A stretch of DNA of 64,000 bases, taken from Thermoguttaceae bacterium. Its GTDB lineage: Bacteria > Planctomycetota > Planctomycetia > Pirellulales > Thermoguttaceae. The translations under genes and the position numbers were made by a program. The notes under the pieces were generated by a model. The model did no database searches. It was given only the letters and a program-made list of their open reading frames with translations, and was not told where the DNA came from. The stretch spans positions 1 to 64,000 of the forward strand of contig JARKPK010000003.1 of NCBI GenBank assembly GCA_029975295.1. Reading direction: 5' to 3'. Positions 28,978 to 59,949 of this stretch are shown piece after piece (position 1 is the stretch's first letter; every line of letters begins with the position of its first letter).

Positions 28978-29501
28978 CAGCTCGTCCTCCTCCTAAGAAA
29001 GGTGATTCTTCAAAACCGAACGTCGGACGCCGTGATCGCGTGAACCGAGTTCTGCAACCGCTTCGCCGCGTTCTACCGCCCCCGTGCGCGCCGCAACCGC
29101 CAACCCCGCCGCTTTCACTTGTGCCAAGGGGCGATAGAGAACGACGGCTCGTGACGGTAGAATAGTTGTTCCCGCGGGCCGGCCCGCGGCAAACGACAGC
29201 GTGTCGCTTGCACGTCTTCGAGAAGTATAGTCGTTTGGCCGAGATAGGCGATTGATCCAGATCAAGCGGTTCGGAAAAAAAAGACTGCCTCACCAAGGCC
29301 CTTTGGCCCGTTCGAGTTGCGGCCTTGGACCGAAGGCTCGGATCATTCTGCGATTCGTCCCGGAGAAAGCATGTTTGGGCCGACCGGGCTTGCGTTTTCC
29401 GGTTCGGATCGTTGCGAGTCTTTTCCGGGGGAAACATGGGCGGCCGGCGGAACGCCAATTCGGGCGGATCGGCAGCGTGAGAAGAACAGGTTGATGGAAC
29501 G
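28978..29501. other. Divergent hcp / Crp-Fnr control region
   Basis: This 523-base stretch holds the FNR-type box and the hcp promoter (29224-29265), a leader of about 240 bases for hcp and about 235 bases upstream of the regulator. No gene is seen. Confidence 0.7.
29224..29265 (-). promoter_or_regulatory. Perfect FNR/Dnr-type box in class II geometry with the hcp -10 element
   Basis: TTGATCCAGATCAA (29252-29265) matches TTGAT-N4-ATCAA at all ten fixed positions. Reading toward hcp, exactly 22 bases separate the box from TATACT (29229-29224), which puts the box centre at about -41.5 from a start near 29217. That is the textbook position for an activating FNR-family dimer. In the other direction no -10 lies at this distance. 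Confidence 0.85.
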
Positions 29502-30241: not shown

Positions 30242-31312
30242 ATGACGAAGAAGTCAACGCGACGCGACTTCTTGCGCGGAAAAGCGGCTGCCGAAGCGGC
30301 CGGCGCCGCGGTCGACCGGCTGTTGCCGGAACTGGGCGACGAGTCGGTGGACCGGCAAACCTTGGTCATTAGTCGGCCGGCGATGGCCGCCCGCTTCGAG
30401 ATTTGCGTCGATGCGACCGATGCAGCCGCGATCGAGGCCGCCTGGGAGGCGCTGGAACTGGTCGGCGAATACGAGTCGCGCTGGTCGTATTTTCGCCCGG
30501 AGAGCGAACTTTCGGCGATCAATTCCGCCGCCGACAGCGAGCCGGTTGCGATTCGCGGCGATCTGTTCGAACTGCTCCAGCGGTCGCGATTGCTTTATGA
30601 GGAGACAGAGGGCGCATTCGATCTGACGGCGACGCCTTTGTGGGAACTATGGGGGTTCGCCCGCCGCGAAGGCCGCGTGCCCGACGAAGCGGCCCTTGCC
30701 GACGCTTTGCGTTTGGTGGGCATGGATCGCGTGGAACTCGATGCGTCGTCGTCGGCCGTGTTCTTTCGGACGCCCGGCGTGCGATTGAACCTCGGGGCGA
30801 TTGGCAAGGGCTACGTCGTCGATCGGTGCGCCGAGCGGCTTGTCGCCGAAGGGGTGAGCAGCTTTCTTCTCAGCGGCGGCCTAAGCAGCATGGTGGCCAA
30901 GGGGCGGCCGCCGGGCGGGGCCTCCGACGGCTGGACGGTGGGCATCCGAAATCCATTGCGGCCCGATCGCCGCTTGGCGCGGTTGGTGCTGCGGGATCGC
31001 GCGTTGGCCACCAGCGGTTCCTACATTCAGTCGTTTCGGTTCGAGGGGAAGCGATTCGGCCATATCATCGACCCGCGAACGGGCTGGCCTGCGGAGCATA
31101 TGCTTTCGACAACCGTTTTGGCCCCGTCGGCGGAGACGGCCGACGCGCTTTCGACGGCGTTCTACGTAATGGGCGTCGAGCGGGCCGTCGAGTTCTGCCG
31201 CAATCGGCCCGAGTTGGGCGCCGTGTTGATCGTCCCGTCGCGAACCCGCGGCGGTTGGAGCGTCCATCGTGTGGGCATTGCCGACGACCAGTGGTTGCAG
31301 GAACCTGAGTGA
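30242..31312 (+). CDS. apbE: FAD:protein FMN transferase (ApbE family)
   Basis: 356 residues with a Tat-like N-terminus (TRRDFLRGKAAAEAAGAA). ApbE marks are RPAMAARFEI, SRWSYFRPESELSAIN, LYEETEGAFDLTATPLWELWGF, LNLGAIGKGYVVDR, FLLSGGLSSMVAKG (a GG in place of the usual GGD) and GHIIDPRTGWPA followed by TTVLAPSAETADALSTAFYVMG, which keeps the metal-binding Asp and Thr-rich FAD loop. It attaches FMN to Thr or Ser of exported flavoproteins (such as Rnf, Nqr or NosR-type subunits) in the periplasm. Its place in the regulator operon suggests it matures a flavoprotein linked to NO or anaerobic respiration. The next gene follows 17 bases after the stop. Confidence 0.92.
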   Translation: MTKKSTRRDFLRGKAAAEAAGAAVDRLLPELGDESVDRQTLVISRPAMAARFEICVDATDAAAIEAAWEALELVGEYESRWSYFRPESELSAINSAADSEPVAIRGDLFELLQRSRLLYEETEGAFDLTATPLWELWGFARREGRVPDEAALADALRLVGMDRVELDASSSAVFFRTPGVRLNLGAIGKGYVVDRCAERLVAEGVSSFLLSGGLSSMVAKGRPPGGASDGWTVGIRNPLRPDRRLARLVLRDRALATSGSYIQSFRFEGKRFGHIIDPRTGWPAEHMLSTTVLAPSAETADALSTAFYVMGVERAVEFCRNRPELGAVLIVPSRTRGGWSVHRVGIADDQWLQEPE

Positions 31313-59115: not shown

Positions 59116-59949
59116 ATGCAGCGAGAAATCATTCGCATCGATGCCGACAAGTGCGACGGTTGCGGTTTGTGCATCGCGGGCTGCCCCGAGGGCGCGCTGC
59201 AACTGATCGACGGCAAAGCCCGACTGGTTCGCGAAGACTTCTGCGACGGTTTGGGGGCCTGTCTGGGAGTCTGTCCGAAAAGCGCGATTAGCTTCGAAAC
59301 CCGCGAGGCGGCCGCCTTCGACGCCGCCGCGGTCGCGCGGCACATGGCGGAGGAGCAAACCGGCAACGACCGCCACGGGATCGGTTCGCCCGGTCCCGCC
59401 TCGAGTCTTCCCCCACTTGAAACGCTTGAATCGCTCGGATCGCCCGCGTCGGGCTGTCCGGGCCTGAAGGTGATGCAATGGCCGGCCGAGATGACCCCGC
59501 CGGCCGAGACGAGCGGGGCCGGGGCGGTTGCGGCCGGCGCCGATGCCGCCGAAGACCGTTCGCCTTCGGAACTGAGGCATTGGCCCGTGCAACTTAGTCT
59601 GGCGCCTCCGACAGCGCCCTTTTTGCGCGGCGCCGACTTGATGCTCACGGCCGACTGCGCTCCGGTGGCGATGGGCGATTTCCACCGCCGTCTGTTGGCC
59701 GGGCGCGCCGTGCTGCTCGGCTGCCCGAAGCTGGACGATCGGCAGCGGCATGTCGAAAAGCTGGCGGCAATCATCGCGCAGTCGGCGCCGCGGCGATTGA
59801 CGGTGGTGCACATGGACGTTCCGTGTTGTCTCGGGCTTGTGCAAATAGTTCAGCAGGCAATGGTCTTGGCCGGGCAACGGGTTCATGTCGATCAAGTGAC
59901 TGTCGGCAGGGATGGTCAGGTGCTCCGTGCCGTGTCGTGGGATGAATAG
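59116..59949 (+). CDS. Dicluster-type iron-sulfur protein with C-terminal domain
   Basis: 277 residues from the ATG at 59116 (GGGAG upstream). Residues 9-55 hold a ferredoxin domain: Cys13, 16, 19 and 23 form a regular CxxCxxCxxxC cluster, and the second motif reads CDGLGACLGVCP (Cys43, 49, 53), so the second Cys of the standard pattern is Leu. Residues about 70-165 are low-complexity Pro/Ala/Glu. Residues about 170-277 (RGADLMLTADCAPVAMGDF, AVLLGCPKLDD, VHMDVPCCLGLVQIVQQAM) form a conserved domain I recognise only as part of this ferredoxin family common in anaerobes, sometimes next to hcp. It probably carries electrons for a redox enzyme. The permease gene follows 57 bases later. Confidence 0.8.
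   Translation: MQREIIRIDADKCDGCGLCIAGCPEGALQLIDGKARLVREDFCDGLGACLGVCPKSAISFETREAAAFDAAAVARHMAEEQTGNDRHGIGSPGPASSLPPLETLESLGSPASGCPGLKVMQWPAEMTPPAETSGAGAVAAGADAAEDRSPSELRHWPVQLSLAPPTAPFLRGADLMLTADCAPVAMGDFHRRLLAGRAVLLGCPKLDDRQRHVEKLAAIIAQSAPRRLTVVHMDVPCCLGLVQIVQQAMVLAGQRVHVDQVTVGRDGQVLRAVSWDE

Follow-up and report, generated by a model that had tools for sequence, protein, structure and literature searches.

The gene divergently transcribed from hcp in the window (i.e., the whole 64,000-nucleotide stretch of Thermoguttaceae DNA analysed here) very probably encodes a DNR/HcpR1-type, NO-responsive activator of hcp, acting at a class II promoter. This reading is based on the DNA and protein sequences and on their comparison with those of related genomes; the features involved are listed in Table 1.

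Table 1. Features of the window discussed in the text (positions refer to the 64,000-nucleotide stretch).
Feature	Position	Strand	Basis or remark
hcp, hybrid cluster protein (NO / hydroxylamine reductase), 553 aa	27316..28977	-	PF03063 Prismane and NCBIfam hydroxylamine reductase equivalog
Predicted hcp leader, 240 nt	28978..29217	-	Implied by the predicted start; long
Predicted hcp transcription start, base A	29217..29217	-	Inferred from the -10 position
-10 element TATACT	29224..29229	-	Exactly 22 bases from the box
Candidate FNR/DNR/HcpR1-type operator TTGATCCAGATCAA	29252..29265	none	Perfect match; motif kept in hcp promoters of the family
Crp/Fnr-family regulator, DNR/HcpR1-like, 237 aa	29502..30215	+	PF00027 and PF13545 (cNMP-binding fold, HTH_Crp_2)
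ApbE family (FAD:protein FMN transferase)	30242..31312	+	Gene 26 bp after the regulator
FrdX-like 4Fe-4S protein	59116..59949	+	Homologues preceded by the box in several genomes

Read directly on the + strand, TTGATCCAGATCAA matches TTGAT-N4-ATCAA at all ten fixed positions, in agreement with the perfect FNR-type box claimed in the preliminary description, and it is the sole perfect match within the window. On the strand of hcp, the order is TTGATCTGGATCAA, 22 bases (tcgcctatctcggccaaacgac), and TATACT at 29229-29224; taking the latter as -12 to -7, the box covers positions -48 to -35 and is centred at -41.5, so that the spacing and the centre previously given were both found again. This is an almost optimal position in Fnr-dependent promoters (PMC5398030) and, judged by the position of the -10 element, the site would be that of a class II FNR/DNR promoter. 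The search for a second sigma-70 promoter in the gap between the two genes retrieved none on the hcp strand and a single candidate, on the + strand. As for the product of hcp, the motifs GHDL, HGE, NC, GGC, CGK, GQC, and EQK, which we take to be the hybrid-cluster ligands, align with those of a solved hybrid cluster protein and, together with the Prismane family assignment, identify it as a hybrid cluster protein. Among named records, the closest hcp sequences are labelled Planctomycetota, Planctomycetales, and Pirellulaceae, which is the basis for placing the circuit in planctomycetes.

The hcp promoters of the same family (41) and of other phyla (74) were gathered, and the motif was searched for within 400 bp. 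TTGAY-N4-RTCAA was found in 30 of the 41 family promoters (mean of the shuffled sequences 0.04; reversed motif 0), and 23 of these 30 have a TAnnnT at a spacing of 22, most other spacings accounting for zero or one case, with the exception of 27 (eight cases) and 30 (three cases). Outside the family, the motif is present in 27/74 promoters, with TAnnnT at 22 in 14 of them. Conservation of the spacing towards hcp is the hallmark of class II activator sites, and these data indicate that hcp activation keeps its -41.5 geometry in different phyla.

Moreover, the presence of the box follows that of the regulator. The latter was scored in 61 genomes of the family, 29 of which resulted positive and 32 negative. 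Where the hcp promoter was readable, regulator-positive genomes yielded 26 boxed and two unboxed promoters, and regulator-negative ones 0 boxed and 18 unboxed promoters (Fisher 7e-11 over both groups), a co-occurrence that spans few independent events (five changes of regulator state and seven of box state), on which the independent-pairs test has no power. The two promoters unboxed despite the regulator belong to a second hcp copy (G012) and to a promoter with only 224 bp upstream (G044). In six boxed genomes (G018, G034, G036, G046, G056, and G057), separate contigs carry the regulator gene and hcp; the association is therefore not just one of linkage. With few exceptions, the genomes of the family have either both the regulator and the box or neither, which helps to predict which planctomycetes may respond to nitrosative stress.

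The genome (5.01 Mb) harbors ten perfect boxes, nine of which overlap large ORFs and have no -10 element at the right distance, so that the palindrome at hcp might itself be due to chance. However, it is the only one of the ten outside a large ORF; the rate at which perfect boxes occur in this genome predicts about 0.001 of them for the 524-bp gap between hcp and the regulator gene, the frequency of TANNNT at a given place is about 0.002, and the composite pattern (TTGAY-N4-RTCAA, 22 bases, and TANNAT, one mismatch allowed) gave a single match in the genome, at hcp. Given also the deep conservation of the box with its fixed spacing, the probability of a chance origin is negligible, and this possibility was rejected. 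The box might otherwise be a repressor or autoregulatory operator of the regulator gene, and not an activator site of hcp: in several relatives, it is only about 10-60 bp from the start of the regulator gene, where it could also block the promoter of that gene. On the other hand, the -10 element at the fixed distance of 22 bases sits on the hcp side, the box stays at hcp also where the regulator gene is carried by a different contig, and the distance between box and regulator start in the window amounts to 236 bp, which makes such a role in place of hcp activation extremely unlikely. For the relatives with the short distance (L127, L130, L132, L133, L139, and L149), the arrangement suggests a possible autorepression.

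The neighbor of hcp was correctly described as a Crp/Fnr protein transcribed away from it, according to its two domains, and the divergent arrangement is shared by many relatives. It is the only protein of the genome above the HTH_Crp_2 cut-off; thus, there is no other Crp/Fnr protein of that type that could compete for the box. Its top PDB sequence match is DNR (3dkw, 2e-23). The AlphaFold model, obtained leaving out the sequences of the planctomycete relatives, has a pLDDT of 91, and its TM-scores are 0.67/0.70 with DNR, about 0.5 with FNR, and 0.56 with the HcpR of P. gingivalis; by TM-score, DNR is clearly the best match of the CRP fold predicted for the regulator, while by Foldseek E-value alone four other Crp-family chains come slightly above DNR. 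The recognition helix LTSEAFSR (ExxSR) has S194-E195 and S198-R199, which fit the rule of Rodionov for TTGA-type sites, S194 and E195 being the Ser/Pro and the Glu of HcpR1 at CRP positions 180/181. The Arg82-Ser83 pair of the CRP cAMP pocket is replaced around L100-P101-A102. In the phylogenetic tree, a single clade (99/100) comprises the planctomycete regulators and is distinct from the delta-proteobacterial hcp-linked group (97/95); the order among these clades, DNR, and FNR (the last two on long branches) is not resolved by the tree, and for this reason we refer to the protein as DNR/HcpR1-like and not as a proven member of either group.

Concerning the signal, the cluster cysteines of E. 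coli FNR are C20, C23, C29, and C122 (PMC5398030). In the alignment, only C29 corresponds to a cysteine (Cys19), whereas counterparts of Cys20 and Cys23 are missing and Cys112 falls one position away from Cys122, in line with the absence of an N-terminal cluster noted previously. Since three of the four cysteines are absent, a low-oxygen signal in the sense of FNR is unlikely; thus, of the NO/low-oxygen promoter proposed in the preliminary description, the part that we infer to be better supported is NO or other reactive nitrogen species. That the regulator is an oxygen-sensing FNR switching hcp on as oxygen falls could be argued from the box, which equals the FNR consensus, and from Cys19, invariant in 29/29 clade members; the missing cysteines and the far lower TM-score of the FNR structures in comparison to DNR make it very unlikely. 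The regulator might also sense reactive nitrogen or the redox state through cysteines (as thiol, disulfide, or metal site) and not through heme. Four clade-specific cysteines (19, 55, 112, and 131) are indeed complete in 26/29 clade members and lacking as a set from the hcp-linked regulators of other phyla, and they could reflect a different sensing chemistry or be merely structural. Nevertheless, the regulator of the window keeps three of them, with Val at position 55, two relatives lack Cys131 and one of these also Cys112, the boxes and hcp being kept, and the position of DNR His187, presumably a heme ligand, is matched by His189 in 26/29 members; cysteine-based sensing thus appears rather unlikely. 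We also consider doubtful that the planctomycete regulators represent a new DNR/HcpR sensor subclass with an unusual sensing site, made up either of heme with Cys19 (which occupies the position of both DNR His14 and FNR Cys29) and His189, or of the four cysteines with a metal or Fe-S center; in the latter case, the site could be partly lost in the lineage of the window. The three genomes whose regulators have incomplete sets, i.e., that of the window, G039 (L133, lacking Cys112 and Cys131), and G032 (L138, lacking Cys131), group together in the hcp tree.

The search for the box followed after 22 bases by TANNAT across 101 genomes of the family retrieved 55 matches, against two for the reversed pattern. 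Among the genomes scored for the regulator, 36 composite matches fall in the 29 positive and four in the 32 negative ones; a minority is probably due to chance, e.g., that of G018 (C182), which lies inside a long ORF. Besides hcp, the genes preceded by the element in relatives code for YgbA_NO, FrdX-like 4Fe-4S ferredoxins, NorB-type NO reductases, a NapC/NrfH-type cytochrome, a hemerythrin, and DUF438-hemerythrin-PAS proteins. These targets fit a regulon of nitrosative stress and nitrite reduction, and they overlap the target lists of HcpR and DNR (PMC1274295). The NorB-type loci with the complete box-22-(-10) element are L186 and L197, in G104 and G051, the G051 protein having been identified by sequence likeness. 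In the genome of the window, the regulon appears minimal, hcp being the only promoter-type target: besides hcp, the only further candidate was a site on C141, which falls within an ORF, and a wider regulon was therefore rejected. No box was found at nrfHA (C85) or before the FrdX-like gene, whose neighbors are, judging from the ORF sequences, peroxiredoxin- and ferritin-like genes; no NorB-type reductase was retrieved from this genome in a search run without a positive control. The genome-wide search for the box near nitrosative or anaerobic genes, suggested in the preliminary description, singled out hcp as the apparently unique promoter-type site, with the other nine perfect boxes in ORFs, whereas nitrosative genes proved to be boxed in the relatives.

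We can depict the following scenario for the DNR/HcpR1-type activator. The signal of the regulator would most likely be NO, taken up on a heme that the protein carries; the signal-charged dimer would then bind TTGATCCAGATCAA and touch the RNA polymerase at the class II promoter (centre at -41.5, TATACT, start near 29217), and hcp would be turned on, its hybrid-cluster enzyme reducing NO and hydroxylamine. The class II promoter and the compact sensor-to-detoxifier circuit claimed earlier both find support in the fixed 22-base spacing, the co-occurrence of box and regulator, the NO/nitrite regulon of the relatives, and the likeness to DNR in sequence and structure. Points that weigh against this reading are the length of the predicted hcp leader, the two unboxed promoters of regulator-positive genomes, the small number of independent changes behind the co-occurrence, the unboxed FrdX-like gene and nrfHA in the genome of the window, and the branching order with DNR and HcpR1.

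Comparable systems are known. The HcpR1 regulon was described in delta-proteobacteria and cyanobacteria (Rodionov et al. 2005, PMC1274295); HcpR1 is a Crp/Fnr protein that lacks Fe-S cysteines and is often encoded divergently to hcp, with the site wyTTGACnnnnGTCAArw, with Ser or Pro plus Glu at two specificity positions, and with frdX, nrfHA, and other redox genes among its targets (PMC1274295). The window shares with it an hcp-linked Crp/Fnr regulator and an FNR-like site (TTGAC/T-N4-G/ATCAA) upstream of hcp; it differs in the site itself (TTGAT/ATCAA, and mixed TTGAY/RTCAA in relatives, vs. TTGAC/GTCAA) and in the regulators, which form their own clade with specific cysteines and His185/His189 and are about 25-35% identical to the hcp-linked regulators of other phyla. 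DNR from Pseudomonas aeruginosa (3dkw) has in common the TTGAT-N4-ATCAA site, the recognition helix (ETFSR / EAFSR), and the His187 corresponding to His189, but the identity is about 28%, Cys19 stands in place of its His14, and it controls nir/nor/nos denitrification genes, whereas the target in the window is hcp; as for targets of the DNR type, two relatives have the element before NorB-type reductase genes. The HcpR of P. gingivalis (HcpR2, PDB 9DAY), which regulates hcp in response to NO (PMC12750200), shows the same fold and the same target, with an identity of 18% and the TM-score of 0.56, and the DNA motif of the HcpR2 group, GTAACnnnnGTTAC, is different (PMC1274295). E. coli FNR shares the identical consensus box and the class II geometry, but not the lack of the N-terminal cysteine cluster. 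Since HcpR1 and DNR regulons of such an architecture have already been described in other phyla (PMC1274295), the novelty is mainly taxonomic and concerns the planctomycete clade. A literature search for planctomycete hcp, HcpR, or Crp/Fnr regulons, by titles and abstracts and with incomplete coverage, retrieved no description of this circuit, which agrees with the earlier statement that such circuits are little described in this group; planctomycetes thus gain a concrete and testable NO-stress regulon for which a regulator, an operator, and a promoter are predicted.

The surroundings of the circuit were also considered. The ApbE gene does not adjoin the regulator in 28 relatives; since the linkage is not conserved, it probably lies outside the circuit, and it was rejected as a member. 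The hcp leader ends with a strong ribosome-binding site (AGGAGGAGGA, 28994-28985), and the distance from the end of the box to the hcp start codon is 274 in the window and 73-276 in relatives. An RNA element in the leader was rejected because no Rfam family matched it, its fold stability is not unusual (z = -1.28), and its single perfect GC palindrome (29173-29188) is within chance expectation. Furthermore, a second, diverged hcp lineage (L127, L130, L139, L145, L149, and L150), whose identity is about 50-56% in the C-terminal part, is also divergently arranged with respect to the same regulator and likewise has this box and spacing.
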